64,000 nt of DNA, taken from Hydrogenophaga sp. GTDB lineage: Bacteria; Pseudomonadota; Gammaproteobacteria; Burkholderiales; Burkholderiaceae_C. The DNA is taken from positions 1 through 64,000 of the forward strand of contig NZ_JAABRQ010000012.1 in assembly GCF_011390835.1 (NCBI RefSeq), given 5' to 3'. Each line of letters opens with the position of its first letter. The first letter of the stretch is position 1. This document shows, one piece after another, positions 11,902 through 63,728 of the stretch. The notes under the pieces were generated by a model that saw only the letters and a program-made list of their open reading frames with translations, searched no databases and was not told the origin of the DNA. Position numbers and translations under genes: made by a program.

Positions 11902-13014
<1,113 letters not shown>

Positions 13015-16033: not shown

Positions 16034-16927
16034 ATGTCGATCTACATCAATAAAGACACCAAAGTCATCACCCAGGGCATCACCGGCAAAACCGGTCAGT
16101 TCCACACGGAAAAGTGCCAGGAATACGCGAACGGCAAAAACTGCTTCGTCGCTGGCGTGAACCCCAAGAAGGCCGGCGAATCGATCTTCAACATCCCGAT
16201 CTACGCTTCGGTGAAAGAAGCCGCTGCCGAGACCGGCGCCACCGTGTCGGTGATCTATGTGCCTCCCGCTGGGGCTGCCGCCGCGATCTGGGAAGCGGTC
16301 GAGGCTGATCTCGATCTGGCGATCTGCATCACCGAAGGCATTCCGGTCAAGGACATGCTGATCGTGCGCAACAAGATGAAGGCCAAGGAAGCCGCTGGTG
16401 GCAAAAAGACCTTGCTGCTGGGCCCGAACTGCCCCGGCCTGATCACACCCGACGAGATCAAGATCGGCATCATGCCCGGCCATATCCACAAAAAAGGCCG
16501 TATCGGTGTCGTGTCCCGCTCAGGCACGTTGACCTACGAAGCCGTTGCACAGCTGACCGAAATCGGCCTGGGCCAGTCGAGTGCGGTGGGCATTGGTGGC
16601 GACCCCATCAACGGCCTAAAGCACATCGACGTGATGCAGGCTTTCAATGACGACCCCGACACCGATGCCGTGATCATGATCGGCGAGATCGGCGGCCCCG
16701 ATGAAGCCGAAGCAGCGGAATGGTGCAAAGCCAACATGAAGAAGCCCATCGTCGGCTTCATCGCCGGTGTCACGGCACCGGCCGGAAAGCGCATGGGCCA
16801 CGCCGGTGCGCTGATCAGCGGCGGCGCTGACACCGCCGACGCCAAGCTCGCCATCATGGAAGCCTGCGGTTTCAAGGTCACGCGCAACCCGTCCGAGATG
16901 GCCAAGCTGCTCAAAGCCCTGCTCTGA
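16034..16927 (+). CDS. sucD: Succinate--CoA ligase, alpha subunit
   Basis: The alpha subunit binds CoA and carries the phosphohistidine intermediate. The 297-residue protein shows the Rossmann loop QGITGKTGQFHT, the CoA-binding region GVNPKKAGES, IGVVSRSGTLTYEA, and the active-site histidine in MGHAGALISGG near residue 256. It is the second gene of sucCD and ends at a clear intrinsic terminator 24 bases after the stop. Confidence 0.98.
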   Translation: MSIYINKDTKVITQGITGKTGQFHTEKCQEYANGKNCFVAGVNPKKAGESIFNIPIYASVKEAAAETGATVSVIYVPPAGAAAAIWEAVEADLDLAICITEGIPVKDMLIVRNKMKAKEAAGGKKTLLLGPNCPGLITPDEIKIGIMPGHIHKKGRIGVVSRSGTLTYEAVAQLTEIGLGQSSAVGIGGDPINGLKHIDVMQAFNDDPDTDAVIMIGEIGGPDEAEAAEWCKANMKKPIVGFIAGVTAPAGKRMGHAGALISGGADTADAKLAIMEACGFKVTRNPSEMAKLLKALL

Positions 16928-16951
16928 GCCAGTTCGGCATTTTCTGAAAAA

Positions 16952-16977
16952 GGCAACGCTGGGGCGTTGCCTTTTTT
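16952..16977 (+). terminator. Intrinsic terminator of sucCD
   Basis: GGCAACGC (16952-16959) and GCGTTGCC (16964-16971) form a perfect 8-bp stem with a TGGG loop, followed by six Ts. Confidence 0.95.
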
Positions 16978-17116
16978 ATGGCCTTTGCTATGGCGGTCAC
17001 AAATCGTTACCACCCAGGGCCGTTGGGGCCCCGCCTGTCAAGGCGGTCTGACAGCGCATGTGGCCACCTCAGACAATCACCTTCCTGCGCGCAGTTCCGT
17101 CGATCTGGCGGGATCG

Positions 17117-44792: not shown

Positions 44793-45419
44793 ATGCCCAT
44801 CTCGCCTGAGGTCCTGAAACTGCGCGAACTGGCCAAGAGCCAGCTCTTCGTGATGGACCTGCGTGAGACCGATGCGCCTGGCCTTCTAGCCGCCCAGCTC
44901 GGTGGACCCGACGCGAAACAGCCCGTGGTCTGGCGCGACGCCGAGAGCGAGCTACTGGTTTTCCCGGGCTCCACGGTGGTGAGGTTCGCGCCCGGGTTTG
45001 TGTTCGTCGAACTCGCTGTGCTCAGCGACCAGACGGGCGACGCGCGCCTGCTGTTCGCTTTCAAGATCGGCGCCTCACCCAACGAAGCTAGCCTCACCGC
45101 CGTCGCCGAAGACCGCCCGCGCGGCAACGCCGTGCTCGCCAAGCGCTGGGCCCAACCCGCCACCGAGCTGGTCTGGCACGCGCTGCTGCGCTGCGGCGAA
45201 GCCCTGCTGGCGCGCCGCCGCCTCAAATCGCCACAGCAGCTCGGTGGCGTCTACACGCTGGGTCGTGTGCTCAGCTTCATCACCACCGAACCGGTCACAA
45301 CCGAAGGCCTGCGCGGCTATTACGCCGAGGCAGCGCAGCGCGAGCAGCCGCTGGACCCGTCCATTCTCAACCGCCGTTTCCTGGGCAGCGTGCCGCTGCG
45401 CCGCACGACGAAACGCTGA
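44793..45419 (+). CDS. Unknown protein, first gene of the Hcp/giant operon
   Basis: A 208-residue soluble protein that I do not recognise. From the ATG at 44793 it starts MPISPEVLKLRELAKSQLFV, has a central beta-rich part (about 35-85, with WRDAESELLVFPGSTVVRFAPG at about 50) and a helical second half ending in a basic RRFLGSVPLRRTTKR. No signal peptide or membrane segment. The longer frame from a TTG at 44661 lacks a ribosome site. It is placed 27 bases ahead of the hcp gene and is the only gene of the operon not followed by a gap under 20 bases. An adaptor, chaperone or immunity role is possible; nothing proves it. Confidence 0.6.
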   Translation: MPISPEVLKLRELAKSQLFVMDLRETDAPGLLAAQLGGPDAKQPVVWRDAESELLVFPGSTVVRFAPGFVFVELAVLSDQTGDARLLFAFKIGASPNEASLTAVAEDRPRGNAVLAKRWAQPATELVWHALLRCGEALLARRRLKSPQQLGGVYTLGRVLSFITTEPVTTEGLRGYYAEAAQREQPLDPSILNRRFLGSVPLRRTTKR

Positions 45420-45446
45420 CCCCCGACCCACAGAAAGAGGTGCGCC

Positions 45447-45932
45447 ATGGCCGAATCGATCTCGCTCACGATCAGCAGCAACGGTGAAAACATCCCGGGC
45501 GACAGCACCGTGTCCAGCCTGGGCCGAGAGAACACGATCGAGGTGCTTTCTCTTGAGCAGACGCTTTTCAGGCCGTTTGATCGAGCGTCCCTGCGGGCGA
45601 CCGGACGGACGATTTATACCCCTTTGAAATTCAGCAAGCGCTTGGATCGAGCAACTCCCTCCTTGCGCCAATCACTGGCGCAAAACTCGGTGATGGTCGG
45701 GGAGTTTCGCTGGTTTCGACCGAACCCTGAAGATGGAAGCACCGAGCATGTGTTCACGTTGGGGTTCACCGGTAGTCGGGTGACAAAGAGCACGCTGCGA
45801 TTGCCGGATACCTTATCGACTGAAGCCAGCAACTTGCCACCCATGGAAGACATCGAGATGGTTCTGGGTTTCGTGTCCTTGGAGTGGGTTTCTGGAGATG
45901 TGTTTTTGCACAACAACGACGTGGACGCCTGA
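45447..45932 (+). CDS. hcp: Hcp-family type VI secretion tube protein (orphan)
   Basis: A 161-residue protein with the Hcp fold pattern: IEVLSLEQTLFRP, TGRTIYTPLKFSKRLDRATPSLRQSL, EFRWFRP and EHVFTLGF, then EDIEMVLGFVSLEW at the end. The middle element corresponds to the Hcp strand-turn with basic-Asp-(K/R)-(A/S)-TP, diagnostic of the family (PF05638). Hcp rings stack to form the inner tube of type VI secretion and also bind effectors in their lumen. AGAAAGAGGTG precedes the ATG. No sheath, baseplate or ClpV gene is visible here, so it is an orphan copy tied to the giant protein that follows after 11 bases. Confidence 0.85.
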   Translation: MAESISLTISSNGENIPGDSTVSSLGRENTIEVLSLEQTLFRPFDRASLRATGRTIYTPLKFSKRLDRATPSLRQSLAQNSVMVGEFRWFRPNPEDGSTEHVFTLGFTGSRVTKSTLRLPDTLSTEASNLPPMEDIEMVLGFVSLEWVSGDVFLHNNDVDA

Positions 45933-45943
45933 TCGTTGCCCCC

Positions 45944-48900
45944 ATGGCCGCCAGCTTCCCTACCGACGCACTAGACCCGCTTGTCCGGCGGATCGGCGAG
46001 GTGGCGGGCCTGTTCAGACCCGGGGCTGACGGTGCGATCGAGGTCAACGAGGACTTCTTCAAGGACCCCATCACCGAACTCGGCCGTGCGATTGCCGACC
46101 GCCAGGAATCCATCATCGAGCTGCTGGGCGAGCTCATGGGCCGCACCAGTGGCGAGGTCGTGGGCCTGCCGGCCGCAGGCGACGTCGATCAGTGGATTCC
46201 GATCCAGGGCCCTGATGGCGACACCGGGCTTTACCTCGTACTGTGCAGCAAGCTCGGGCGTCTGCACTTTGGCCTGGGCTGGCGATGGCGCGTCACCGCC
46301 GACGAGCTGGCGTCGTCGATGTGGGCTCACGTGCCGCTGCTCTCCACCGACGGCACCACCACCGCCGGCGGCACGCGGGTCGAGGTGGCCACGCGCGATG
46401 CGCCTTTGCGGCTGGCGGCCGATGTCAGCTTGCGTGATGGCTTTGGTACCGCGGGCCTTGCGTTTAGTGGCGTGCGCGGCAGCGTCAGCATCAGCGGCAT
46501 CAGCGAGCCGCCCAGCGTGGCACTGGTGCTGCTGGGGCTTCAGCTGCCCGGCGAAACCACGCCGCGTGACCGATCGCTCGCCGACCTGATCAACCTGCCC
46601 GGGTCGGCTTGGATCGAGACCGCGGTGGCCTTGTTCACCGCACAACTGAGCGCTGCGGCCGGCACGGACGATACCGCGTCGCGCAAGGTGCAGGCGGTGC
46701 TGGACCACCTGCTGCCCCTGCTGGGTATTTCGGCGCCCGCCGGGAGTCCGCGCTTGCGCTGGGAAGAGCTGCCCGCCCGCGGGGAGGCGGTATTCGACGA
46801 CTGGTTCCTGGCCTTGGTCAATACGCCGAACGCCATGCGGCGCTGGCTCGGCCACTGGCAGGGTCTGCTCAGCGAAGGCCTGGGCACGTCCATCCCGGCC
46901 GGCGTGGACATTGCGGTGAACGGCAACGGCACGCGCGCCGACCCCTGGCATGTGGGGCTCTCGGTGGGTGGCGTGGACACCGCCGCCACCGCTGCGGTGG
47001 ACAGCCCGGCCAGCGGCACCCGGCTGCTGTTCCTCGGTCTGCGCGTGGGCGCTACGCCGATCCCGCTGGCGGGCCCGCTGCGCTTGACGGTGGGCGGTGC
47101 GGCCGAGGTGGTGGCCATCCCGGTCGGCGGATCGGGTCAGGTGCGCGCGCTGCCTTCCTTGGCCATCGCCCTCAAGCTGCATGCCCAGACCGGCCCGCTG
47201 GTCTCGCACACCTTCGGCGCGGGCGATCCGCTGGCCGCGCTGGCGCAGCTCAGCGTGGGCTCGATCGAGGCCGGTCTGGGGCTGGACGCCGCAGGCAAGC
47301 CGGTGCCGCTGTTGCAGTTGCGCGAGGTGAGCTGTGCGCGCGGCAGCTGGCCGGTGCTCGACCTGTCCTCGGCCGACGCGGTGATCGATGGCCTGGGCGC
47401 GGTGGCGGGCAATGCCATCCAGCAACTGATCGAACAAGGCTTGGGCCTGCTGGACGGCGGCACCCACGCCGGGCGCCGCGTGGCGGCCCTGATGGGGCTG
47501 GTGCCGCCCAGCTCGCGAGCGGCGCCTGGCGCCTGGCCGGTGCCGCTGCTCACCGATGCGGCGCAGATCAGCGCGTTTCTCGGCGACCCGCTGGGCGCCA
47601 TCGGTCGCTACCACGCTCGCTGCCTGCTGGCCGATGTTGACGGCGTGCCAGGCTGGCGCCACCTGCTGAGTGAACTGGGTGAACTGCTGCGCAGCGCCGG
47701 CGGGCCGAGCCTGCCGTTGCGAGGCAGCGGCTCGGCGTCCGACCCGTGGCGCCTGTCGCTGGCGGCCACCGACGCGGGCGCGGTGGTGCTGCGGGCCGAC
47801 AGCGCCCTCGTAGGCGGCCGTCCACAGCTGCGGCTCGCGGCAGCGTTCGAGCCGCGCGCGCTGACGGTGGATGCGGTGCAGTTCTCCTTCGCCGCCCTGG
47901 CCGAGCTGCTGCACCTGGACCTGCCCGCGCCGGCCAACACTGGCGCGCCGCGCGCCACGTGGCTGTCTGGTCTGCGCGCCGAACTGCGCCTGCATGGCGA
48001 TCTGCAAACTCTGCCACTGGCTGATCTGCGCCTGAGCGCCGAAGCGCTCAGCGCGGCGATCGAATGGCGTCCAACCGAGGGCGTGGGCTGGCGCGTGGCG
48101 CTCACCGCGCCGGGCGCGCAGTGGAACGCCGCCAGCCGCGCCATCGCCCTGCCCGATCTGGTGCTTGACCGCGATGGCATCGCGGGCTGGACGCTCGACG
48201 CGCCCGACCTGGGCGGTGCGCTGGATAGCGCGCGCGGCGCCGTGTCGCGCGATGGTGTGGCCGAGTTGGTGCAGTACCTGCTCGGCCACTTGATGCTGGA
48301 GCATGGGGGGCCGATGGGCTTTGGGCTCTCGGCCTTGCTCGGTTTGTTGCCCGGCGATCCCGGCATCCGGTTGCCGGCGTGGCGCGGTGAGGCGGACGGC
48401 ATCGCCCTACCCGCCGACTTTCCGCGTCTGCAACCGGCCGACTGGGGTGCCTTCTTCGCCGATCCGCTGCCGGTGCTGCGCGGCCATGTGGCAGCCATCT
48501 TGTCCAACCCGCGTCATGCGCTGCCCTTGCTGCGCTGGCTGGGGTTGGCACTGCAAGGGCTGGCGCCCGCGCGCAGCCGCTTGGGTGAGCTGCTGACCTT
48601 CGAAGAGGCCTTGGGTGATCTCGGCGGCTTTCCGCATCCCGACGCGATTGAGACAGCCGCCTTTGGCGAAGCCTTGGCCAGTCCGACGGCCACCGACGAC
48701 GCGCCATTGGCCTTGCCCAGCCTGGAAGACCTGCCCTTCACCTTGTCCGGCCAGGGCAGTTACGAAGCCCCTTACGCCCTGGGCTTGCGTGCCAAGGGTG
48801 TGCGCAGTGTGCAGGCGCTGGTCTGGCTGGATCCAGACGGTCCGCCTGTGGGCGACGCGGTAGACCTGGCCATCGCCACGCTGGTGCCCGCACTGCGCGA

Positions 48901-51900
48901 CCTGGGCCTGCTCGGCAGCCGGCCGGCCGAGCAGCTTGCGCCGGTGCTTGATGTGCTGGCGCAGCTGGACGCGGGCATGGCCGATGCGCTCAGCGGTGTG
49001 CTGCCCGCGAGGCTGGGCAACGGGCTGCGCGCGCTGGAGGAGTTCCTGCGCACCAGCGACGGGCTGGTGCTCTCGGCCAGCCAGCTGCCGCCGGTGGCCA
49101 GCGGCTGGAGCCGACCTGCCCAGCCGCTCGCGGCCGATCATGTGCACGCGCTGGATCAGGCCGCGGTGGTGGCCGAAGTCCGGCGCCAGCTGCTGGTTTG
49201 GGATGCTGCGAACACCGGTCCGGTGCTGCTGCTGTGCGCGCCCTTTGCCGGCGCCGAGGCCTGGTCGACGGTGCAGACCGACCTGGGCGGCGCCCGCAGC
49301 GCCTTCAGCTTTCGCGTGGCCGGGGTGGCGCCCTTGGCGGTCAGCCTGGCCTCGCTGGACCCAGGCGCGCGCCTGATCGCCGCCGAGCTTTCGGCGTGGA
49401 ACGGGGCACCGGGTGTGGCGCCCGCTGCGCGGGCCGTGCCGCTGGACGCGCCGGCCGGCAGCAGCAGCCAGGCCGAGCAGGTGGTGCGCCTGCTGCAGCG
49501 CATCGCCCAGCTGCACCCGGGCCAGCGCGTCACGGTAGTTGCCCACTCGGCCAGCGGCTTGGCAGCGCGCGCCGCCGTGCAGCGCGCCGGGCTGGCGCCT
49601 CTGGTGCGCGGCCTCATCACGGTGGGCACGCCACACGTGGGCACGCCGCTGCCTTGGCTGGCCAATGCGCCGCTGGCCGAAGCGCTGTCGGCGCTGCAGC
49701 GCCTGCGCACCCGCCTGCCGTTGACCGGTGCGCTCGGCGAGGCGCTCGACGCCTTGTGGGGCTTCCTGCGCGAGCGCACGCCCGAGGGCCTGGCGATGGC
49801 TTGGCCCTCGCAGGCGTTTGCACCGGTGGGCGACGAAGCGCTGCCCGCCGGCGTGTCCGGCCATGCGGTGGCGTTGCGCTTGCCGACCGCCAGCCTGGCA
49901 TCGGCCCTGGCGAGCGCCGTCACCACACGGGCCACCCAGCTGCGCGCCGCGATGGCCGCGCGTGCGCCGGTGTCGCACCTTGGAGTTGGTCTGGCGCTGG
50001 CGCCCAGCGTGCGCGCTGCGGAGGGCGCGCTCAAGCTGCGCACCCATGCGCGGCTGGACATCGCCCGCGTGCGCATCGCTGCCGGAGATGCTGCGCGCGA
50101 ATTGCCAAGGCTGGCGTTGCAGGCCGAGATCTGGCGCGAAAGTGGCTGGCTGGTGGGCGACCCGGCGGCGCGCGTTCGGGTACGTCGCGCCGAGCTGGGC
50201 TGCGAAATCACAGAGGCGGGTATCGTGCCGAGGGTGCGGCTGACCGATGTGTCCGTCGACGGCGTGGAATTGCCGTTGGCCACACTGCGACGCCTGGCCA
50301 CGTCGGGCCCCTGGGTGCCCGACGACCTACTGGTGCCGGCCTTGGATGCGCTGCTCGCCGAGCTGACCACCGGGCCGGGGCTCGATCCGGGCGTGCTGGC
50401 GCTCGCGCGACTGCTCGCCAGTGTGGAGCTCACGCAGCTGCGGCAAGGCGGTGCAGACGACGACAGCGGTGGCTACGCCATCCACGGCGACGGCTGGGCC
50501 GCCATGCTGGCCGACGCGCCCGCCTGGTGGCAGCGTGTGCTGGCGGCCGCGCTGGTCGACGTGCCGCGGCGTGATGCGCTGGTGCAGCGCCTGCGTACCG
50601 TGCTCGGCCTGGCGGGCGATGACCTGTCTCGTCTGCTCATCTCCCAGGCCAGCGACGATCCCGCCTGGCAGGCGTTGCGCGCGTTGCTGCAGGCGGTGGG
50701 GCTGCTGGCGAGCGACGCGCGCGGCGCGGTGCCAGAGCTCGCCGCCTGGTTGGCCCTGCTGCGCGATCCGGTGGCCTGGGCCACGATCCGGCTGCGCCCG
50801 CTGCTGGCCGACGCCACCCGGCGCGGCGCGCTGCTGGGTCGTTTGCGCAACCTGCTGGGTGTGCGCGACTTGGGCAGCCCGGTGGTGGAACTGGCCCTGG
50901 GTGGCGGGGTGGCGGTGCGCGTCGAGGCGCTCGGGCAGGTGGCGCTGCGGCTGGACGGAGGGGCGTTTCGGCTCGGTGGCGCGCTCTCCGTCAGCGGCGA
51001 CATCGGCCTCAACCTCGCCAGCGGCAGCGCAGCGGTGGCGCTGCGCCTGCAGCCCGCGGCGGTGGCGACCGGTTTGCGCCTGTCGCTCGACCTGCCGGTG
51101 GGCGCGGCCGGCGCGCGCTGGGGCCTGGCGCTGGATTTCAGCGACGGAGCGCGTGGCGCGCCCTTTGCCGAATTACCGCTGGTGCCGCTGCCGGCCGACC
51201 TGCCGGCGCGCCTGGGGCAGCTGTTGCCGCGCTTTACCCTGACCACCCTGGCCACCAGTCTGCTCGACAACCTGCTGCTGCCCCGCGTGCCGCAGATCGC
51301 GCCGGTGCTCCAGGCCCTGGGTCTGGCCACGCCGGTCAGCGCGACCGAGCGCGCCCGGGTGCGCAATCTGGCGCGCGTTCTGGCCGACCCGCTGGGCTGG
51401 CTGCGCACGGGCGGCAATCTGTTCTCCCTCGCCGGCACCGGACCAGTCTTGGTTCCCGAGAACGTGGTGGCGCTGGTGCGCCAGCTGTTCGGCACTTTCG
51501 GCCTGACCGATGCGGCCGGCGATGTGAGCCTGCCGCTGAACCTGCGCCTGCGCATGGCCAGTGCGCCGCAGACTCGCCTGTCGCTGGCCACCACTGCCCC
51601 GATGGCCTTCGAGGGCGGCGTCACCCTGGCGGGCACTTTGGAGCTCGCCTGGTCACCGGCCGGCAGTCTGGGCGCTGGCGGCAGCCTGGCGCTGGGCGCA
51701 CCCCTGCCCGCCGGCAGCCCCTGGGGTCAACTGGTGGTGCAGGCCGGCGCGGTCGACGGCGCTTTTACTCTGTCCCTCGGCCCCGATGGCGCGCCGATCC
51801 GGCTGCTGCCGTTCGGCGGCTTCGACGCCGCCAGCGTGGGTGCCGCCGCCGAGCGCCTGTTGCCCACGCTGATCGACGGCGCCTTGCGCGCGCTCGCAGA

Positions 51901-54900
51901 CTCGGGCGACGCGGCGGTGGCGGCGTTCATCACCAACCTGCGTGCTGCGGCGGCCACGCTGCAGGTCGACAGCACCGCCCACCTTGACCGCGTGGCCCAC
52001 CACCCGGTCGAGTGGTTGCGCGATCGGTTCTCGGTGGTCAACGCCCCGGCCTCGCTGAACGCGGTGCTCAACCTGATCCCGGTGGCGGTTCGTGGCCCGT
52101 TCACCGTGCCGGCGGGCGCGCTGCGCTTCGAGCCGCCGGGCTCGCCGGTGTCGCTGTCGCTGGGTCAGTTCGGCGCGGGCGGTGGAGCAAACATCGGCGC
52201 GGCCGTCGAGCTCGATATTGACCTCGGACCGGTCACCCTCAGCGGCGCGCTGTCGGTAGGGCTGCTCGCAAGTGGCATCGAAACCCTCAACCTGGACCCG
52301 GTGGTGAACGTGATGTTCAACGCCGCTGTGGACCCGGGCGTGATCCAGCCCGGCGGCGTGTCCATCGAGCCCGCAATCGGCCTGGCCGTTGGCGCCAGCG
52401 GCGTGCAGCTCTGGCTCTACCCGATCGGCAACGTGGAAGGTTCGCCCGACTTCCGGCTCGACGTGCTCCCCGAGCTAGATTTCGGCGTCGACGACGGTGG
52501 CTCCATCGAAGACGCGCTGCTGGAGCTGGCGCGCCGCGTGCTGGTGCCGGTGGCGGTGGAAGCAGTGCTAGACAGCGACCCGGTCACCGGCTGGCTCAAC
52601 ACCTCGATCACCACCTCGCCCTTGGAGTCGCTGGTGCCCGGCACCGTTCTTGTGAGTGCTGGCCTGCTCGTGGTCGTCGAGCCGCCGGCGGGCAGCCGCA
52701 CGGCATACAACCTGGCGCCGCTCAGCAGCTTGGGCGACCCGGTGCGCCTGGTCGAGGGCCTGATCGGTGCCGTCTTCGATGCGATGGCCACAGCGTTTTC
52801 AGCTCTCCCCATCGTGGCCTTCGACGTGCCCGGCTCGGGCATCTTCCTGGCGCGCGACAACACAAGCCTGCCGCACCGCTTCGGCCTTCGTGTGGCGCTG
52901 CCCGAGCTGCGCCTGGGCGACGATCCGGAAATCATCATCCGCCTGGGTGGCGAGACCGACTGGATCGCGCCCGCTGGTGGCCCGGCCGGCGTGGTGCCCG
53001 GGCTGTCGCTGCTGCTGCTCACCGACGCCGGCGCTGGCTCCGGCGTGGCCACCCGCTTCGGCATCGAGCCGGTTATCGAGCTTGCCGGCGTGGGCATCGA
53101 CATCAGCGGCCGCGCCGACGAGCCGCTGTTCGATCTCAGCGGCTTCCAGCTCGGCGGGCTGGAATCGCTGCTGTACCTGAGGGTGCAGGTGCCGGCCAGC
53201 GGCTCGGCGCCTGTGGTGACGTTTGGTGCCTACGGCGACCTCGATGGCATCGCGATTCCGCTAGGCACCTCCAACAGCAACCCGGTAGCTGCCTCGCTCA
53301 TGAGCGGCAGCGGGGGCGAGAGTGCGCCGGTCAACCCGCGCTTCTCGGTGCGCGCGGCCTACGTCGAAGACTTCTGGCTGGAGCTGGGCGACACGCCCGG
53401 ACGCAACGAGGTGTGGTTCCCGATCCAGCGCACCTTCGGGCCGGTCAGCATCCAGCAGATCGGCATCCGCTGGATCGGTGGCGAAGATCTCAAAGGCGCC
53501 ATCCTGCTCGACGGGGGCGTGGCGCTGGCCGGCCTCGCGGTGGGAGTGGACGACCTGTCGCTCACCATTCCGCTGGCCCACATCGACGACCTGAGCAAAT
53601 GGGAGCTGGGCCTGCGCGGCCTGGCCGTGAGCTACGACGGCGGCGGCGTGCGCATCGGTGGCGGCCTGCTGCAGGTTGACGTGGGTCCAGGGCAGTTTCA
53701 GTACGACGGCTTTCTGCTGATCGAGGTCGGGGGCTACAGCTTCGTGGCGCTGGGCTCGTACGGGGTGATCAATGGCGAGCCCTCGCTCTTCGTGTTCGTG
53801 GTGATTAACGCCACGCTGGGCGGGCCACCCATGTTTTTTGTCACCGGACTGGCGGGTGGCTTCGGCTACAACCGCGGCCTGGTGGTGCCCGCCATCGATG
53901 GCCTGCCGCAGTTCCCGCTGATCGAGGCGATGGGAGAGTCGTCGGCGGTCACCGCCACGCCGATGGCGTTCCTGCAGCGCATGGGGCCTGCCGTGCCGAT
54001 GGAGCGCGGCAGCTACTGGTTCGCCGCCGGGGTGAACTTCACCTCGTTTGCGCTGGTGAAATCGCAGGCCTTGCTCTACGTGCTGCTCAACCGCGGCCTG
54101 GAGATCGGCCTGCTCGGCAAGAGCCAGTTCGAGCTGCCGCCAGCGGTGCCGCTGGTCAGCGTGGAGCTGGCGCTCAAGGCGCGCTTCTCCACCATCGAAG
54201 GCGTGGTGTCGGTGGAAGCGCGGCTCACCGACAACTCCTGGGTGCTCTCGCGCGACTGCCGGCTCACCGGAGGTTTTGCCTTCTTCCTCTGGTTCGACGG
54301 ACCCTACGCCGGCGACTTCGTCATCACCATCGGCGGCTACCACCCGCGCTACACGCCGCCCGCCCACTACCCCAGCGTGCCGCGCCTGGGCTTCAACTGG
54401 CGCGTCTCCAGCAGCATCTTCATCAAGGGCGAGGCCTATTTCGCGCTCACACCGCGCGAGGTCATGGCCGGTGGTCTGCTCGAAGCGGTGTACGACAGCG
54501 GCGACGTGCGCGCCTGGTTCCGCGCCTGGGCCAACATGTACATCCAGTGGCGGCCCTTCTTTTTCGAGGTCGAGATCGGGATTTCCATCGGCGTGGCGGT
54601 CGACACCTGGCTGGGCACGGTCAAGGTAGAAGTCGGCGCTTCGCTGATCGTCTGGGGTCCGGAGATCGGCGGTCGCGTCACGATCGACATCTGGATCATC
54701 AGCATCACCATCCCCTTCGGCGCTGCCCGCATCATTCCGCAACCGCCGATGTCCTGGGACCAGTTCCGCGCCTCGCTGCTGCCGCCCGAGGATGAGAAAT
54801 TGTTCGGCGGGCTGGTCGAGCGAGGCCTGGCCAGCGGCGATCCGGCCACCGGGCCCTGGGACCTGCTGCCTGAGTTCGTGCTGCGCACCGAGACCTTCCT

Positions 54901-56773
54901 CGGCGCCAGCGGCGTGCGCGTGGGCAACGGATCGACGGTCACCACCGGCCCGACGGAGACGCGGTCGATTGACGTCAAGCCCATGGACGTGACCGGCGTC
55001 GATAGCCTGCACCGCGTGCGCGTGCTGCAGATCGATGTCGACGTGACCGACCGCTTCCAGGTGCGCGAGGCCATTGGCGGCAACGTGCCGCGCGCGCTGT
55101 GGGATACCGAGAAAGCGCCCGGCAAGGAAGTGATTCCGGCCTATACCGGCCTGCGCCTGGTGGCCGAGATCGATCGCAACGCGCTCGATTCCACCGGCAG
55201 CGTTCCCTGGGCCACGCTGTTCGAGGAAGGCTCGACGCACCCGCTGCCGTTTGGCCGCGAGCTCGACCTGCGCGCCACCGTCCTGCTGGCCGCGCAGCAG
55301 GCGCTGGCGCTGGACGTGCGAGCCAGCCACAGCAGCGTGACCACCTGGCTGGCGCAGGACACGGTGTTGCACAGCGCGGCCTGGGCCGAGCGGCGCAACG
55401 CCACGCTGCAGGCGCTCGCTGCCGAGGGCGTGCGCGTGACGCCATCGAATCGCTCGGGCGACGTGATGCCGCGCGGCAGCTTCCGGCGCGCACGCCGCAA
55501 CGCGCCACCGCTGGTGCGCTCGCTGCACGAAGGCCTGGCAGCCGAGCCGGTGCTGTCAGTGCAGACCTCGTTGATACCGCCGCTGGCCGAGGCCACGCCG
55601 GTCAGGGTGCGCGCGCGTCCCGAACTGCGCGCGGTGATCCGCCAGCGCGTGGAGCCCACCAAGGCCGGCTCGGGCAGCGTGCGCACCACGGTCTCGTCCG
55701 AGCGCAAGGCGCTGCGGCTGAGCGCAAGCCAGATGGACACCCTGCGGGCGGGGCCCAGCCCTGGCGCCTCGGTGAAGCGCCAGGGGTCGGCCAATGAGGC
55801 GCGTGCCACGGGCCTGGCCATGGCCGCACCTACGGTGATGCGCGCATCCACCGCCACCCGGCGCGAGCGCGAGTGGCTCGACCAGATGGGCGCGGCCACC
55901 CTGGGCAAAGCCTTGCGCGACGGCAGCGCTGTCCGGCGCGATGCCGCGGCGCCCGGCGCGGTGCTCGATCCGGGCAGCACGCTGCGCTTTGAGCTGCCCA
56001 CGCGCAACGTCGACGGTGAGCCGCCGGTGCTGGTGCTCAGCGGTGACGCGGCGGCCCGTGTCACCGCGCTCGACCGCAGCGGTGCGCCGCGGCTGGATGT
56101 CGAAACCGTGGGCTCGACCAAACTGGCGATTCCGGTGGGCACGGCGATGCTCGCCGTGACCGGCCTTGGGCGTTCCAGCCAGCGGCCCAACGCGCCGGCG
56201 CTGGGGGCGGTGAGCCTGGGCGAGGCCACCGACGCCGTGCCGGTGGTGGGCTGGCAGGCGCACAACGAACTGGTGGCCCTGACCGACAACTGCCTGCTCG
56301 CGCGTGGTGCCTTGCTGCGCCTGGGGGCATCGGTAGCCGACTTGTCGCAGCGCGGCTGCGTGCTGGCGTCCACCGCGCTGGACCGGCAGTCCAGTCTGGA
56401 GACCTTGTTGCCGACCAGCATCCGCAGCCTGGCCGTGGTGCTCGACGAAGGCGCTGGCGAGCCCGGTTCCGACCTCGCCAGCTCGCTGGGCCTGTCGGTG
56501 CGCCACGGCGCCGTGTCCGAAGAGCCCACGCTGATCGTGGCTGGCGGTCGCACGGTGTTGCTCTACGAAGTGCTCAAGGTCGAGGCCCAGACGCCGTGGC
56601 TGGTGGTGGCGCTCGCACACACCGACGCCTGGAGCGTGGCCGGCGTGATGGGCTTTGCCGCGCCACCCTCGGTCTGGGAACCGCTGCTGGCCGAGGGCGA
56701 GCTCGACGCCCTGGTCGAAGACGGCCCGCTGTCGGCCAGCGGCAGCCTGCGCCTGCAATTCATTGAGAGCTGA
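45944..56773 (+). CDS. Giant protein (3609 aa) with DUF6603-like region and embedded lipase-like segment
   Basis: A very large, Ala/Leu/Gly-rich protein without signal peptide. The first 2500 residues are alternating helical and beta-strand modules; a motif (L/F)-x-D-P-(L/V) recurs near residues 548, 839, 1606 and 1813. At about 1090-1300 lies an alpha/beta-hydrolase-like segment with AHSASG (Ser1202 in the nucleophile elbow) and VGTPHVGTPL, as in lipases; the usual Gly before the elbow is Ala. At about 2550-2930 is a region matching DUF6603 as I know it, with FGYNRGLVVP, YWFAAGVNFTSF, GGFAFFLWFDGPYAGDFVITI and VWGPEIGGRV. The C-terminus is beta-rich with an Arg-rich stretch. ATG at 45944 is chosen because it lies just after the hcp stop. 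Function unknown; cargo or structural partner of Hcp is inferred from position only. Confidence 0.85.
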   Translation: MAASFPTDALDPLVRRIGEVAGLFRPGADGAIEVNEDFFKDPITELGRAIADRQESIIELLGELMGRTSGEVVGLPAAGDVDQWIPIQGPDGDTGLYLVLCSKLGRLHFGLGWRWRVTADELASSMWAHVPLLSTDGTTTAGGTRVEVATRDAPLRLAADVSLRDGFGTAGLAFSGVRGSVSISGISEPPSVALVLLGLQLPGETTPRDRSLADLINLPGSAWIETAVALFTAQLSAAAGTDDTASRKVQAVLDHLLPLLGISAPAGSPRLRWEELPARGEAVFDDWFLALVNTPNAMRRWLGHWQGLLSEGLGTSIPAGVDIAVNGNGTRADPWHVGLSVGGVDTAATAAVDSPASGTRLLFLGLRVGATPIPLAGPLRLTVGGAAEVVAIPVGGSGQVRALPSLAIALKLHAQTGPLVSHTFGAGDPLAALAQLSVGSIEAGLGLDAAGKPVPLLQLREVSCARGSWPVLDLSSADAVIDGLGAVAGNAIQQLIEQGLGLLDGGTHAGRRVAALMGLVPPSSRAAPGAWPVPLLTDAAQISAFLGDPLGAIGRYHARCLLADVDGVPGWRHLLSELGELLRSAGGPSLPLRGSGSASDPWRLSLAATDAGAVVLRADSALVGGRPQLRLAAAFEPRALTVDAVQFSFAALAELLHLDLPAPANTGAPRATWLSGLRAELRLHGDLQTLPLADLRLSAEALSAAIEWRPTEGVGWRVALTAPGAQWNAASRAIALPDLVLDRDGIAGWTLDAPDLGGALDSARGAVSRDGVAELVQYLLGHLMLEHGGPMGFGLSALLGLLPGDPGIRLPAWRGEADGIALPADFPRLQPADWGAFFADPLPVLRGHVAAILSNPRHALPLLRWLGLALQGLAPARSRLGELLTFEEALGDLGGFPHPDAIETAAFGEALASPTATDDAPLALPSLEDLPFTLSGQGSYEAPYALGLRAKGVRSVQALVWLDPDGPPVGDAVDLAIATLVPALRDLGLLGSRPAEQLAPVLDVLAQLDAGMADALSGVLPARLGNGLRALEEFLRTSDGLVLSASQLPPVASGWSRPAQPLAADHVHALDQAAVVAEVRRQLLVWDAANTGPVLLLCAPFAGAEAWSTVQTDLGGARSAFSFRVAGVAPLAVSLASLDPGARLIAAELSAWNGAPGVAPAARAVPLDAPAGSSSQAEQVVRLLQRIAQLHPGQRVTVVAHSASGLAARAAVQRAGLAPLVRGLITVGTPHVGTPLPWLANAPLAEALSALQRLRTRLPLTGALGEALDALWGFLRERTPEGLAMAWPSQAFAPVGDEALPAGVSGHAVALRLPTASLASALASAVTTRATQLRAAMAARAPVSHLGVGLALAPSVRAAEGALKLRTHARLDIARVRIAAGDAARELPRLALQAEIWRESGWLVGDPAARVRVRRAELGCEITEAGIVPRVRLTDVSVDGVELPLATLRRLATSGPWVPDDLLVPALDALLAELTTGPGLDPGVLALARLLASVELTQLRQGGADDDSGGYAIHGDGWAAMLADAPAWWQRVLAAALVDVPRRDALVQRLRTVLGLAGDDLSRLLISQASDDPAWQALRALLQAVGLLASDARGAVPELAAWLALLRDPVAWATIRLRPLLADATRRGALLGRLRNLLGVRDLGSPVVELALGGGVAVRVEALGQVALRLDGGAFRLGGALSVSGDIGLNLASGSAAVALRLQPAAVATGLRLSLDLPVGAAGARWGLALDFSDGARGAPFAELPLVPLPADLPARLGQLLPRFTLTTLATSLLDNLLLPRVPQIAPVLQALGLATPVSATERARVRNLARVLADPLGWLRTGGNLFSLAGTGPVLVPENVVALVRQLFGTFGLTDAAGDVSLPLNLRLRMASAPQTRLSLATTAPMAFEGGVTLAGTLELAWSPAGSLGAGGSLALGAPLPAGSPWGQLVVQAGAVDGAFTLSLGPDGAPIRLLPFGGFDAASVGAAAERLLPTLIDGALRALADSGDAAVAAFITNLRAAAATLQVDSTAHLDRVAHHPVEWLRDRFSVVNAPASLNAVLNLIPVAVRGPFTVPAGALRFEPPGSPVSLSLGQFGAGGGANIGAAVELDIDLGPVTLSGALSVGLLASGIETLNLDPVVNVMFNAAVDPGVIQPGGVSIEPAIGLAVGASGVQLWLYPIGNVEGSPDFRLDVLPELDFGVDDGGSIEDALLELARRVLVPVAVEAVLDSDPVTGWLNTSITTSPLESLVPGTVLVSAGLLVVVEPPAGSRTAYNLAPLSSLGDPVRLVEGLIGAVFDAMATAFSALPIVAFDVPGSGIFLARDNTSLPHRFGLRVALPELRLGDDPEIIIRLGGETDWIAPAGGPAGVVPGLSLLLLTDAGAGSGVATRFGIEPVIELAGVGIDISGRADEPLFDLSGFQLGGLESLLYLRVQVPASGSAPVVTFGAYGDLDGIAIPLGTSNSNPVAASLMSGSGGESAPVNPRFSVRAAYVEDFWLELGDTPGRNEVWFPIQRTFGPVSIQQIGIRWIGGEDLKGAILLDGGVALAGLAVGVDDLSLTIPLAHIDDLSKWELGLRGLAVSYDGGGVRIGGGLLQVDVGPGQFQYDGFLLIEVGGYSFVALGSYGVINGEPSLFVFVVINATLGGPPMFFVTGLAGGFGYNRGLVVPAIDGLPQFPLIEAMGESSAVTATPMAFLQRMGPAVPMERGSYWFAAGVNFTSFALVKSQALLYVLLNRGLEIGLLGKSQFELPPAVPLVSVELALKARFSTIEGVVSVEARLTDNSWVLSRDCRLTGGFAFFLWFDGPYAGDFVITIGGYHPRYTPPAHYPSVPRLGFNWRVSSSIFIKGEAYFALTPREVMAGGLLEAVYDSGDVRAWFRAWANMYIQWRPFFFEVEIGISIGVAVDTWLGTVKVEVGASLIVWGPEIGGRVTIDIWIISITIPFGAARIIPQPPMSWDQFRASLLPPEDEKLFGGLVERGLASGDPATGPWDLLPEFVLRTETFLGASGVRVGNGSTVTTGPTETRSIDVKPMDVTGVDSLHRVRVLQIDVDVTDRFQVREAIGGNVPRALWDTEKAPGKEVIPAYTGLRLVAEIDRNALDSTGSVPWATLFEEGSTHPLPFGRELDLRATVLLAAQQALALDVRASHSSVTTWLAQDTVLHSAAWAERRNATLQALAAEGVRVTPSNRSGDVMPRGSFRRARRNAPPLVRSLHEGLAAEPVLSVQTSLIPPLAEATPVRVRARPELRAVIRQRVEPTKAGSGSVRTTVSSERKALRLSASQMDTLRAGPSPGASVKRQGSANEARATGLAMAAPTVMRASTATRREREWLDQMGAATLGKALRDGSAVRRDAAAPGAVLDPGSTLRFELPTRNVDGEPPVLVLSGDAAARVTALDRSGAPRLDVETVGSTKLAIPVGTAMLAVTGLGRSSQRPNAPALGAVSLGEATDAVPVVGWQAHNELVALTDNCLLARGALLRLGASVADLSQRGCVLASTALDRQSSLETLLPTSIRSLAVVLDEGAGEPGSDLASSLGLSVRHGAVSEEPTLIVAGGRTVLLYEVLKVEAQTPWLVVALAHTDAWSVAGVMGFAAPPSVWEPLLAEGELDALVEDGPLSASGSLRLQFIES

Positions 56774-56781
56774 ACACCGCC

Positions 56782-58776: not shown

Positions 58777-58795
58777 GCACCGCCGGAGACACACC

Positions 58796-59845
58796 ATGGA
58801 CAACTGGCTCACCGCACCCCGATACCTGAGCGAACTGCGCAGCCCGCCCTCTACCCTCCTGGGTGCGGGCAACACCGCGCCGCCTTCGGTGGTCAACTTC
58901 CTGACCAGGCTGCGCCTGCTCTACGGCGTGCCGTTCAACCACCTGGTGCCCGACAGCCGCCTGCTGCCGCCTGAGTCGGTGCGCTTTTTTTACATCGACC
59001 GCAACTTCACAGACCGCCTGGTTGATGGCGCGCTCAGCGTGGGCAAAACCACGACGCGCGAGTTTTCTCATGCCCAGGCCAGCAACGCGGCGTTGCGCGC
59101 CCAGGTTGACGAAGAAGAGCGCAACCTGCGCTTGCAGTTGCGTACACCCGGCGCGCTGAAATTCACGGCGCCGCAGACCGCCGACCTCAGCGGCGTGCTG
59201 GTGCGTTCGCGCGCGGTCTCGGGCTGGCCAGGCCTGGAGGTCAAGGCGTACCGCAGCATCACCAGCGCGAGACCGGAAGGCGAGCGGCTGGACCTGCTGC
59301 GTATGGACCGCCTCGCGCCCGACGTGCTGCTGTGCATTTTCCAGGGCGTGCCGACCCGGGTCGACATGGAAGAGCCGCGTGAAGGCATCCAGTTCGGTGT
59401 CGATCTGATCGACGCCGATGGCAACGGCATCGTCGAGCCCAGCAGTGCCGCGCCCAGTGGCCTGCGGCTGAAGCTGCGCAAACTGAGCGGCACGCTGGCC
59501 GGCCAGCTGCTCGGGGCCACGGCCACCAACCTGCGGCCCACGCCCCAGACCGTGGTGGTACCGGTGCGGCGCGGCAATCGGCGCGTGCTGCATGTGCGCG
59601 CCTTGCAAGATACCCTAAGCAGCGCGCTGGCCGCCAGCGGCGACCCCGACGCCCAGCCGGGCACGCTCACCGCCGGCGAACTCGCGCTGCAGATGTTCCA
59701 GTTCCCGTTCCGGCAGCGCTTTGAAGGCAGCGGCGACGCGCGACGGGTTACCTCGCAGTACATCGACGCGGTACTCAAGGTGGCGGTGATCGCCAAGCCG
59801 CTGGAGCCCGACGAGGTGCTGGCCCTGTTCCCCCGAGTGCTCTGA
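58796..59845 (+). CDS. Unknown 349-aa protein of the giant-protein operon
   Basis: A soluble protein, start supported by GGAG eight bases upstream. The N-terminus has LTRLRLLYGVPFNHLVPD and LLPPESVRFFYIDRNFTDRLV (first 75 residues), patterned like a recognition or docking surface. A helical stretch with RAQVDEEERNLRLQLR follows, then a beta-rich half containing VLVRSRAVSGWPGLEVKAY and ending LEPDEVLALFPRVL. I cannot assign a family. It precedes the 1291-aa gene by seven bases. The mix of short conserved-looking blocks and no export signal fits a cytoplasmic assembly component. Confidence 0.75.
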   Translation: MDNWLTAPRYLSELRSPPSTLLGAGNTAPPSVVNFLTRLRLLYGVPFNHLVPDSRLLPPESVRFFYIDRNFTDRLVDGALSVGKTTTREFSHAQASNAALRAQVDEEERNLRLQLRTPGALKFTAPQTADLSGVLVRSRAVSGWPGLEVKAYRSITSARPEGERLDLLRMDRLAPDVLLCIFQGVPTRVDMEEPREGIQFGVDLIDADGNGIVEPSSAAPSGLRLKLRKLSGTLAGQLLGATATNLRPTPQTVVVPVRRGNRRVLHVRALQDTLSSALAASGDPDAQPGTLTAGELALQMFQFPFRQRFEGSGDARRVTSQYIDAVLKVAVIAKPLEPDEVLALFPRVL

Positions 59846-59852
59846 GGTCCTT

Positions 59853-62800
59853 ATGGCGACACGACTGTTTCAGACCGAACTACTGGCGCGCAACCTCACA
59901 CTGGCCCATGGCATCGTGCCCCGCGAGGTGTTGAACTGGGACAGCGGCGCCTGGCAGGGGCCCCGGGTGTTGGTGCCGATCATGGTCGAAGCCCTGGCAG
60001 TGTCGGTCGCCGACGCGGCCACTCGCGAATGGGCCGCGGTGGCGGTGGACCCGCTGGACCCCGAGGCAGCGCGCCCGGCACCGTTCGACACCGTCAAGGA
60101 CCGGCCGGCGGGTGTGCACCTGCACTGGGCCCTGCCCGACGCGCTCACCCGCGGCAAGCGCCAATCGGCCGACGAAGAGGTGCCGCTGGCGGCTTCCGTG
60201 CAGTCCAGCGTGGAGCAGCCCGAGCAGCGCGACCAGCGCCGCACCGAATTCAGCCGCACGCCCAACCGCTGGCTGGTGGTGCGCATGCGCGCGGGCGCCA
60301 CGCAGACCGCACCGCGCGAGGCAGCGGCCTGGGTGGTTTGCGGCGCGCTCGATCCGGCGCGGCGGCGGGCCGTGCCTCTGGCCGACTGGAGCGAAAACCG
60401 GGAGACCGCCGATTCAGCGGTGACCGCGATGGGCCCGGGCGATCCGACCTTTGCCGTCTACTACGACAACACGCGCAACCTGCTGGCGTTTCACGACCCG
60501 CTAAAAGACGTGGCCAGCGGACCGCTCAGTTACCTGGTCTGCGGCTGGTACGCACAGCTCGAAGACGATCCGCTTTACGCACCGGTTACCGAGCAGGCCT
60601 GGCTGGACTTGATCGAGAGTCTGGGCTGGTCGGTCAACGCGAGCGCTATCGAGCGGCTGCGCAAGGACGCACGGGCTGCCGCTCGCGCTGGCTTTCTGCC
60701 AAGTGCCGACCAGAATGACGAGACACGCGCCGGCGAAATCCAGCTCTTTGGCCCTGATCGCGACGGTGGCGACAAGCGCAGCGACGCGTCCTCGCTACTC
60801 TTGGGCACAGGGCCATCGCAGTTCACCAAGGACGCCGAGAAGCGCCAGATTAAGTCGCGTGCGGTGTACGCCCGCAAGCAGTTCTTCAGCCGGTTCTGGC
60901 CGCGCCAGATGCTGTGCCACGGTGCGTTGTTTGACGTCGCCTGGGGCGGGCGCGGCGGTGCTTTCGACAGCCCGGGTGCGGGCGTGCCGCCAGCGGGCTC
61001 GGTGGGACTGGCGGTGGGCAACACCGCGGCGCAAGCCCTGGCGGCGCTGTCGGCCAAGCAGTCGGGCGATGCATCGCTGGCGCGCCTGCTCGACGCGTTC
61101 GCCACCGGTGCGCTGTCCGACCTGTCCCAGTCCAGCGGCCTGGCGCGACTGGAGAGCCTGCTGCATGGCGAAGACTTTGCGTCTTCACCCGGTGGCTTTG
61201 TGGTGGACCAGATCGAGCAGGGAGACTTGTTTGCGCCGTCGGCAGGCTCCGAGACACCCGGCACCCGCGGCCAGACGGACAAAGGTCTGCTGAAAACCCA
61301 GGGCTCGGACACGCGTCAGCTCAAAGTGCAGCGCAGCTTCTTTCGCGCCGACGCCTCGCTCAGCGAACTGCGCGAACGCATGCAGAACCCCGGCAAGCGC
61401 CCGGGCGGTGCTGCGGGCCAGGCGCCTGCCGGGCGCCCTCGCACCACCGAAACCGTGCGCCGCGCCATGCCGCGCTGGTTCCAGCCGCGCGATCCGGTGC
61501 TGTTGCTCAGCCAGGCGCGGCGGGCCTACAAGCACGGAGAAGACCATGTGATCGACGGTGTGCTGGGTTGCCGCATCAGCGGCCAGACCGTCGACCAGGT
61601 CAGTGTGAATCCATGGCGAAGCAGCGAGACGGGGGATCGCAACGCCGCGCTGGTCGATGTGGTTGGTCGCGACCTGAGCACGCGCGACCTGCAGAGCGGC
61701 CAGATTCCAGCCGAATGCGGTGCGCTGTTTTTCGAGGCGCTGCTGCTCGATCCGACCACCGTGCCGGTGGCGCAGAACCTGATCGTGCAGCGCGCTCACC
61801 GCGTGCGCAGCTCGGCGCGCAGCGACGACCGGGTGGTGTCCGCCGCCATCGCAGGGCGTCGTTACCAGGTGGAGCAGACACTGCTCTATGTGGCCGCGGC
61901 CGATCCGCTGATCGACGCCCAGGCGCTGGCAGCCACCTCCAACCTGCGCGGCACCCGTCCGCACCCACTGGCGCTGCAGCTCTGGCGCCGGCCCTGGACC
62001 CCGATCGAGATGGACTGGGAGGTCGCCTGGTTCCCGTCGCCCGGCGCCGAGCGCGACTGGGCGCTGCAGCAGACCGACTTCGGACTGCGCGGCGATGTGC
62101 CACTGGGCACCGACGGTGAGCCGGCGCTGGTGCTGCGCGGGCGCAGCTTGCTCACGCCATCGGTGGCGCGCACGCTGGAGCGCCACCTCAAGCGCTTTCT
62201 GGAGGACGAGGACAGCGGCGAGCGCGACGAAGCCACACCCAGCGAAGAGGCCGACCTGGCGCGCGCCATGCGCGATTTCGCCAAGCTCGATGTGCTGGGC
62301 ACCTCGCTTTCGGGCTTGCACGACACCCTGATGGCGCGTCGCCCGGTGCCCGGGCTGGCCGGTGAACCGGCGCCCGACGCCTGGCTGCCGATCCCGGAGG
62401 CCCGTGCGCTGTGGCTGCTGCGGGCGGGCCACCTGCGCGTGCAGCGCGCGCGGGTGATCGACGCGTTTGGGCAGTTTCACGAATTGGCGCCCGCGGTGCT
62501 CGCCGCGCCGACGCGGGCCGAAGACCTGGTGAGCCGCGCCGGCCCCGCGTTTCTCGCCCTGCCGCCGCGCATCCAGGAGCCAGCTCGGCTGATGTTCCGT
62601 CTGCTCGACGCCAGCGCTGCACCCGGCGCCGAGGTGCGCGAAGCCACGCGCGAACGCTCCCCGGTCTGCGGCTGGATCGTGCCCGACCACCTGGATGAAG
62701 CGGTGGAGGTGTTTGACGCCCAGGGTCAGGCCAGCGGCCAGCTGCAGCCAGCCGACGACGGTCGCACGCTGGAATGGCAGGGCGTGCCCGGCGTGGCCGA

Positions 62801-63728
62801 TGCGCTGGGCGCACCGCCACAGCTGGCGCAGCCCCAGCTCGCCGGCTTTGTGCAGGGGCTGCTGGACCACGGCCTGCGCGACCGCGAGCGTCTGGCCTCA
62901 GAAGACCCACCAAGCGAGAGCGCGCTGTCTGCCCTGTTGCGCATGGTCGATGCCACGCTCTGGAGCACCGACCCGGTGGGACGGGCTGGTAGCGAACACC
63001 TGAGCCTGCTGGTGGGGCATCCGCTGGCGCTGGTGCGCGCTGAACTGCGGCTGGAGGTGCAGGACGGCGGCGTGACCGCCATCGTACAAGGCGCGTTGTA
63101 CGACGACGCGCGCGACGAACTGGAGCGCACGCCGCTTCCGGTTCGCCTGGGCGAGGTGCTGTCGCTCGACGACGGCCTGATGGGCTATTTCATCAACGAC
63201 GACTACAGTCGCTTCTATCCGATCCACGACTCGCTGGCGCCTCAGGCCTGGCCGATCGGCCCGGGTCAGGGCTTTCTGGGCTCGCTGGCTGGCGCGCCCA
63301 ACACCGCGGGCCGCGCGGTGCGCCACCCCTACATCGACCGCACGCCGCAGGTCTGGATCCGGCCCGGGCAGCGCGTGCGGCTCACCCTGGTGCTGGACCC
63401 TCGCGGTGCGGTGCACGCCACCTGCGGCTTCCTGCCGCGCAAGAAGATCGAGCTCATGCGCGAGCACGTGGCGCCGGCGCTGGAGGCGCTGAACTTCACT
63501 TTCCGCGTCGGCCCGGTGCTGGTGGATCCGGACACCATCCGCATGCCACTGCCGTCCGAGATCGCTGGGGGCTGGAGCTGGGTACGGCGCGTCAACGTGA
63601 CGACTTGGCAGGAAGATCCGGTGATCAAGGCCAGCCAGGACGCGTTGCTGCCCGACACGCCGGCCTTGCTCACCGAAGGCTGGCTCAAGCTCAGCGGCGC
63701 GCTGGTGACGCCACCCGACGAGCGCTGA
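59853..63728 (+). CDS. Unknown 1291-aa protein, last gene of the giant-protein operon
   Basis: A soluble protein without signal peptide. The start has VLNWDSGAWQGPRVLVPIMVEAL and RPAGVHLHWALPDALT (about 25 and 85), then FSRTPNRWLVVRM. A long helical, Arg/Ala-rich middle follows (about 280-560, with KLQVQRSFFRADASLSELRERMQ near 490). The second half alternates strands and loops, containing PVCGWIVPDHLDEAVEVFDAQG (about 938) and MGYFINDDYSRFYPIHDSLAP (about 1110), and closes with IRMPLPSEIAGGWSWVRR near 1228. No named family is recognised. Its length and last position suggest a large modular partner, possibly structural. Confidence 0.75.
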   Translation: MATRLFQTELLARNLTLAHGIVPREVLNWDSGAWQGPRVLVPIMVEALAVSVADAATREWAAVAVDPLDPEAARPAPFDTVKDRPAGVHLHWALPDALTRGKRQSADEEVPLAASVQSSVEQPEQRDQRRTEFSRTPNRWLVVRMRAGATQTAPREAAAWVVCGALDPARRRAVPLADWSENRETADSAVTAMGPGDPTFAVYYDNTRNLLAFHDPLKDVASGPLSYLVCGWYAQLEDDPLYAPVTEQAWLDLIESLGWSVNASAIERLRKDARAAARAGFLPSADQNDETRAGEIQLFGPDRDGGDKRSDASSLLLGTGPSQFTKDAEKRQIKSRAVYARKQFFSRFWPRQMLCHGALFDVAWGGRGGAFDSPGAGVPPAGSVGLAVGNTAAQALAALSAKQSGDASLARLLDAFATGALSDLSQSSGLARLESLLHGEDFASSPGGFVVDQIEQGDLFAPSAGSETPGTRGQTDKGLLKTQGSDTRQLKVQRSFFRADASLSELRERMQNPGKRPGGAAGQAPAGRPRTTETVRRAMPRWFQPRDPVLLLSQARRAYKHGEDHVIDGVLGCRISGQTVDQVSVNPWRSSETGDRNAALVDVVGRDLSTRDLQSGQIPAECGALFFEALLLDPTTVPVAQNLIVQRAHRVRSSARSDDRVVSAAIAGRRYQVEQTLLYVAAADPLIDAQALAATSNLRGTRPHPLALQLWRRPWTPIEMDWEVAWFPSPGAERDWALQQTDFGLRGDVPLGTDGEPALVLRGRSLLTPSVARTLERHLKRFLEDEDSGERDEATPSEEADLARAMRDFAKLDVLGTSLSGLHDTLMARRPVPGLAGEPAPDAWLPIPEARALWLLRAGHLRVQRARVIDAFGQFHELAPAVLAAPTRAEDLVSRAGPAFLALPPRIQEPARLMFRLLDASAAPGAEVREATRERSPVCGWIVPDHLDEAVEVFDAQGQASGQLQPADDGRTLEWQGVPGVADALGAPPQLAQPQLAGFVQGLLDHGLRDRERLASEDPPSESALSALLRMVDATLWSTDPVGRAGSEHLSLLVGHPLALVRAELRLEVQDGGVTAIVQGALYDDARDELERTPLPVRLGEVLSLDDGLMGYFINDDYSRFYPIHDSLAPQAWPIGPGQGFLGSLAGAPNTAGRAVRHPYIDRTPQVWIRPGQRVRLTLVLDPRGAVHATCGFLPRKKIELMREHVAPALEALNFTFRVGPVLVDPDTIRMPLPSEIAGGWSWVRRVNVTTWQEDPVIKASQDALLPDTPALLTEGWLKLSGALVTPPDER

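Follow-up and report, generated by a model that had tools for sequence, protein, structure and literature searches.

A giant DUF6603 protein and its constant partners form a conserved bacterial gene cassette, possibly for lipid handling, that includes an accessory Hcp in Hydrogenophaga

We analyzed a 64,000-nucleotide stretch of DNA from Hydrogenophaga sp. (the window), the start of contig C3 in a genome of 3.67 Mb that is 99.3% complete. The window contains an operon of six open reading frames (ORFs), all in one direction on the plus strand (44793-63728), which encode P1, a protein of the Hcp family, a giant protein, and the proteins P4, P5, and P6 (Table 1). The intergenic gaps, from P1 to P6, are 27, 11, 8, 19, and 7 bases. 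An earlier reading of the sequence (the original prediction) had reported six such genes in an undescribed-looking operon with a DUF6603-like giant, and we found all ORFs at the positions and with the sizes given there, apart from an alternative start of P1 at 44760 instead of 44793, proposed by our own simple gene caller, which would extend the protein to 219 amino acids (aa). The giant is indeed a member of PF20248 (DUF6603, a domain of unknown function), with a match at residues 2494-2946 that covers profile positions 1-452 of 502 (E value, 1.7e-142; 476 bits for a cut-off of 27).

Table 1. Genes of the operon and segments of the giant protein, with positions in the window
Feature	Position	Strand	Description
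P1	44793..45419	+	208 aa; separate family (cluster c1); encoded 5' of the giant in type-A loci
Hcp-family protein (P2)	45447..45932	+	161 aa; accessory; PF05638, PDB 5urw
Giant, DUF6603 protein	45944..56773	+	3609 aa; PF20248
Tandem modules, giant residues 170-974	46451..48865	+	Spaced ~265 residues; profile-profile self comparison
Inserted alpha/beta-hydrolase domain, giant residues ~1090-1345	49211..49978	+	Pfam matches below cut-off and alignments of giants; limits approximate
Second module array, giant residues 1551-2140	50594..52363	+	Spaced ~210 residues; self comparison, model
DUF6603 core	53423..54781	+	Long antiparallel beta meander in model
P4	56782..58776	+	664 aa; constant partner
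P5	58796..59845	+	349 aa; constant partner
P6	59853..63728	+	1291 aa; constant partner; without known family

The operon does look undescribed. P1, P4, P5, and P6 have no match in Pfam or NCBIfam at an E value of 1 or in PADLOC at 0.01, and for P5, PHROG gave nothing beyond weak matches (0.005 and 0.024, Rz-like spanin). Our literature search found no paper that names DUF6603, and the Pfam family name covers neither the operon, nor the partners, nor a mechanism. P4 to P6 together with the giant constitute a cassette that fits none of the known systems tested.

The conservation of this cassette was established from a scan with a DUF6603 alignment over one genome per species, which yielded 112 relatives by two peptide patterns, the best 80 of which were fetched, a choice biased toward close relatives. 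Twenty-nine of the 80 loci were excluded from the order count because the giant fell short of 2,900 aa, was cut or broken, or had not been matched as such; the remaining 51 and our own make 52 loci with a giant above 2,900 aa, 51 of which were counted since one had no following genes. P4, P5, and P6 each lie at the expected place in 50 of these 51 loci, in most cases overlapping or separated by a few bases, in gene calls from our simple caller, which seems to have lost the P4 of locus L074. The recurrence of this order in distant phyla shows that the operon is not a chance arrangement, and we conclude that giant-P4-P5-P6 is one conserved cassette in many phyla, which bears out the part of the original prediction that took the giant and the unknown proteins as one unit. 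The nearest named loci belong to Hydrogenophaga sp. IBVHS1 (L018) and to a Hydrogenophaga metagenome-assembled genome (MAG; L019), with 85% and 83% identity in DUF6603, respectively. In nine further loci with giants of other lengths, P4 and P5 are fused into one protein, suggesting that the two are in contact, and a model of a natural fusion presents P5 as an immunoglobulin-like sandwich with a helical insert.

Residues 2450-2960 of the giant were matched in 921 proteins (own included) among 2290 scored candidates. Records that carry the cassette, of ~18 kb, bear the names Proteobacteria, Actinobacteria, Bacteroidota, Acidobacteriota, Gemmatimonadota, and Myxococcota. Shorter giants occur in Nostoc and in a MAG of Firmicutes, and Moorena has a giant of 3201 aa; nearly all records seen name the core proteins as hypothetical or by a DUF number. 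To our knowledge, few giant bacterial proteins keep the same partners from phylum to phylum. The distribution is patchy, DUF6603 being present in 6 of 369 genomes sampled across the class, 21 of 399 sampled across the family (our own genome in both), and 1 of 5 grouped with the genus. In a quick tree of the giants, phyla are intermingled, with Hahella within Bacteroidota and a Holophagaceae MAG next to Variovorax, which points to horizontal transfer.

The loci fall into two main types according to the gene upstream of the giant, which could be assessed in 48 loci where 1.5 kb or more of upstream sequence was available: P1 in 31 (type A), a gene of cluster c5 in 15 (type B), both in none, and neither in L022 and L086. 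Cluster c5 is a lipase cluster, judging from the one member scanned (PF01764, Lipase_3, 2e-31). The type-B giants are found in one clade of the tree, together with the untyped L021, L022, and L024. Type-B loci further have a P7 of family c4 and a large synthase downstream, which in Hahella comprises AMP-binding, DIP2-like, KS, AT, KR, ACP, and TE domains, the AMP-binding region being, in our own reading, probably FAAL-like (acyl-AMP-ligase-like). Relatives of this synthase lie downstream in 9 of the 10 type-B loci examined, a count that omits 5 of the 15 lipase loci, has L037 as its sole miss, and includes three synthases cut by the end of the stretch or contig. None was found in 26 type-A stretches spanning ~5-10 kb beyond P6, among which L086, where no P1 was called, was placed by the tree. 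The nine linked polyketide synthases (L131, L132, L135, L188, L189, L202, L203, L205, and L206) adjoin in six cases (L131, L132, L189, L202, L203, and L205) a relative of an Asp/Arg hydroxylase (Asp_Arg_Hydrox in Hahella). In L040, from Marinomonas rhodophyticola, the type-B cassette is split into many frames by frameshifts or sequencing errors.

In type A, P7 measures 1,084-1,755 aa and is recognizable by sequence in 19 of the 26 stretches (query included); the one complete type-A P7 that was scanned has no Pfam match. It is followed in L183, L184, and L198 by a protein of 343-360 aa with a conserved C-terminus, and a protein of 403-409 aa is encoded farther downstream in L180, L192, L193, and L197, on the opposite strand in L180. 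A short form also exists, in which a DUF6603 protein of ~1,120-1,210 aa adjoins a distant relative of P4 (L175, 1.7e-12; G265, 3.8e-11; G194, cut, 1.1e-8). L175 (genome G506, 2889-18533), the sole short form scanned against Pfam, encodes a PhoD-like protein (2.4e-7), a DUF6603 protein of 1206 aa, and a P4 relative of 1006 aa, with neighbors of 1473 and 581 aa that have no Pfam match.

The giant is modular. In profile-profile self comparison, the best module pairs of the N-terminal array reach 94-98%, and those of the second array 90% (1551-1750 versus 1763-1958) and 25% (1742-1920 versus 1950-2140). A model of residues 1950-3000 (mb42b7cb08755; mean predicted local distance difference test [pLDDT] score, 77.5) begins with helices followed by ~7 strands, at block confidences of 39-84, and continues into DUF6603, where blocks score 72-88 up to residue 2589 and mostly >90 over 2590-2870. 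The strands alternate polar and apolar residues to a degree of 2.65, compared with 1.19 in shuffled strands (standard deviation, 0.15; maximum of 500 shuffles, 1.63). Between the two arrays, the inserted hydrolase segment gave matches below cut-off at ~1175-1241 to PGAP1 (PF07819), Palm_thioest (PF02089), and Abhydrolase_1 (PF00561), and our giant retains an intact nucleophile elbow, A-H-S1202-A-S-G. In alignments of giants, AHSxxG is likewise intact in L018, L019, L023, L029-L032, and L044, whereas in most of the remaining type-A giants the segment is present without the serine; it was not seen in type-B giants. An HxxxG-type histidine follows the elbow in 7 of 8 aligned giants, and the acid residue was not identified in the alignment.

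As to where the core proteins reside, no signal peptide is visible at the N-termini of the six, as judged by eye and from hydropathy windows, without SignalP, in line with the original prediction. In P1 of L030 and L031, basic residues come after a membrane segment at the N-terminus, and P7 from these two loci carries such a segment at its C-terminus; 10 type-A loci encode, upstream and on the same strand, small hydrophobic proteins (hydropathy windows, 1.5-2.5); and the cassette is shared by Actinobacteria and Gram-negatives. Based on these features, we propose that the core proteins would assemble in the cytosol as a complex attached to the inner side of the cell membrane. Because of this tethering, the varied hydrolases, the probable lipid-making synthase of one clade, and the long beta meander, we favor a function in lipid handling. 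Our preferred reading, to which we give a probability of roughly 0.35, is a complex in the cytosol that associates with the membrane, carries lipid, has a hydrolase built in or attached, and has spread by horizontal transfer. The giant would act as a long, mostly beta scaffold along whose sheet a lipid or some other hydrophobic substrate is held, as in apolipoprotein B or bridge-like carriers, with P4 and P5 and P6 as structural partners. The hydrolase, within the giant in type A or encoded alongside it (the class-3 lipase in type B, the PhoD-like protein in one short-form locus), would load, trim, or release the lipid, and in type B the dedicated synthase would make it. If the cassette does carry lipid, it would give bacteria, inside the cell, an equivalent of the giant lipid carriers that animals have and of the bridge-like transporters of eukaryotes.

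The resemblance to known carriers is partial. ApoB-100 (9bde) was the first Foldseek match of the 1950-3000 model (3.5e-5), and the proteins have in common their giant size and, in the model, a long beta meander. However, a PDB search revealed no sequence relation, and the giant differs from apoB-100 by the absence of a visible signal peptide, by its inserted hydrolase, and by its constant partners. In VPS13 and ATG2 (repeating-beta-groove or bridge-like proteins, whose repeats build a hydrophobic groove) and in AsmA-like proteins, too, a giant protein is built from tandem modules that contain beta-sheet. The AsmA-like ones are periplasmic and anchored, and the cassette differs from them in that it is also present in Actinobacteria. 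The repeating-beta-groove unit consists of five strands plus a loop, as described in PMC7613979, whereas the one modeled module of the giant has helices followed by ~7 strands. The model superposes poorly on apoB-100, with a root mean square deviation of 57 Å and a TM score of 0.1. Hydropathy windows >1.9 are present in 41 of the 81 giants (whole or fragmentary) and in 9 of the 61 P5 proteins, so parts of the core may lie in the membrane. More speculatively, and with a good deal less than even odds, one may imagine a pan-bacterial intracellular lipoprotein-like machine, built on an apoB-like giant of 3,100-3,800 residues with a built-in or adjacent hydrolase and three constant partners, which moved between phyla, gained in one branch a polyketide synthase of its own for making the lipid, and in Hydrogenophaga recruited an Hcp ring from secretion.

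The same proteins could instead form a giant complex at the cell surface or outside the cell (an adhesin, a matrix, or a fiber assembly), which would leave the cell by an unknown route and have P7 and the collagen-like and fiber-like proteins as outer parts. Several features would suit such a complex: glycine-rich collagen-like proteins, recognized by eye, upstream in type-B loci (the one scanned has no Pfam match); a Peptidase_S74 tail-fiber chaperone domain in the P7 of Hyalangium locus L056 (L128:8611-10596; 3.4e-5); an Asp-box match, below cut-off, in the cut P7 of L067; and, following apoB-100 in the Foldseek list of the model, matches to S-layer and outer-membrane or barrel proteins (SDBC/SlpA, FimD, and LptD). 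The lack of visible signal peptides, the membrane segments of P1 and P7 in L030 and L031, which fit a cytosolic complex, and the presence in both Actinobacteria and Gram-negatives speak against it, and we regard a surface location as rather doubtful.

Another view is that the giant serves secondary metabolism or storage as a docking frame for the synthase, the lipase, and the hydroxylase, without binding lipid itself. The linkage of type B to the synthase, the tandem modules, and the fixed order of the large partners are all compatible with a frame, but type A possesses the same core without the synthase, and we consider this explanation unlikely.

The original prediction had treated Hcp as a defining member of the operon and a possible carrier of the giant, and had staked the idea on related loci keeping hcp and on a match of the 161-aa protein to PF05638; the second of these holds, the first mostly does not, and neither role of Hcp is supported. 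P2 is a genuine Hcp: it matches PF05638 (T6SS_HCP) at 6.9e-12 (46.2 bits for a cut-off of 23.5), comes just under the cut-off of TIGR03344 (54.8 versus 58.9 bits), and has as its best PDB match, at 7e-29, the solved Hcp 5urw, which we take to be the Myxococcus xanthus structure. It is the only PF05638 match in the genome. Still, hcp occurs in only 4 of the 48 loci, namely our own, L018, and L019 (all Hydrogenophaga), and the Solirubrobacterales MAG L023; in the other 44, no hcp was recognized with one query sequence at an E value of 1e-3, a search that a remote tube-like protein could escape, while the other genes stay together. We conclude that Hcp is a lineage-specific accessory and not part of the core, and in Hydrogenophaga it may provide a docking or chaperone element in the shape of a ring. 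L023 has the order hcp-P1, and Hydrogenophaga has P1-hcp; P1 and the giant are neighbors in 30 loci, L023 included, and in 26 of these they overlap or lie at most 4 bases apart. On the giant tree, hcp appears on two separate branches, which requires two changes; a single early gain followed by losses would also account for the pattern. The clean split in the Hcp tree is weak evidence, as 12 of 30 family Hcp loci reached the profile, the 26 rows were picked by likeness to the query, and L023 is long-branched. In our genome, hcp has a GC content of 0.56 and a GC content at third codon positions (GC3) of 0.70, compared with a GC3 of 0.83-0.87 for its operon neighbors (giant, 0.87), a dip not seen in L018, L019, and L023 (0.89-0.90). 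For 3 of 26 database Hcp homologues, the longest contig is exactly as long as that of a giant or P4 homologue (P0126/P0164/P0015, 19719; P0151/P0166, 18365; P0133/P0024, 28919), suggesting that they share contigs.

An export of the giant, or of one of its domains, by Hcp rings, to which the position of hcp between P1 and the giant and its two tree branches could lend themselves, appears very improbable given this rarity and the lack of a recognizable type VI secretion system (T6SS). The sheath protein TssC (PF05943, VipB) was found in none of the four hcp-bearing genomes, and neither were the baseplate proteins TssK (PF05936, which we take to be TssK) and TssF (PF05947), although the completeness of L019 and L023, both MAGs, is unknown. 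Two of the eight genomes searched were positive for TssC, and these, the cassette-bearing Hahella and Rhizobacter MAG, gave TssK and TssF in the same searches. The original prediction had noted that the window contains no sheath, baseplate, VgrG, or ClpV gene, and in our whole genome, too, the T6SS sheath and baseplate genes tested were not found. The locus retains an Hcp where no T6SS was found: P2 clearly belongs to the family of Hcp/TssD, but its gene sits in an unrelated operon. The cluster differs from extracellular contractile injection systems as well in having no phage-type sheath gene, the sole PF04984 match of the genome being on contig C4 and not on C3, and the other three hcp-bearing genomes have no PF04984 match.

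A role in conflict or defense, as the patchy spread and the mixing of phyla might suggest, is highly unlikely in view of the constant core, the absence of matches for the six proteins in PADLOC-DB 2.0.0 at 0.01, the absence of toxin or nuclease domains among them in Pfam, and the absence of P6 relatives in phage records and of DUF6603 relatives in viral contigs.

The sheath-like gene on C4 (G000:C4:53022-54203; L173:9022-10203) is solitary, with no phage-like genes around it by eye, and encodes a protein of 393 aa that matches PF04984 (7.6e-22) and PF17482. Lastly, a database protein of 2654 aa (P0186), which may be an assembly artifact, combines DUF6603 with histidine-kinase domains (Cache, HAMP, and HisKA, by Pfam number).
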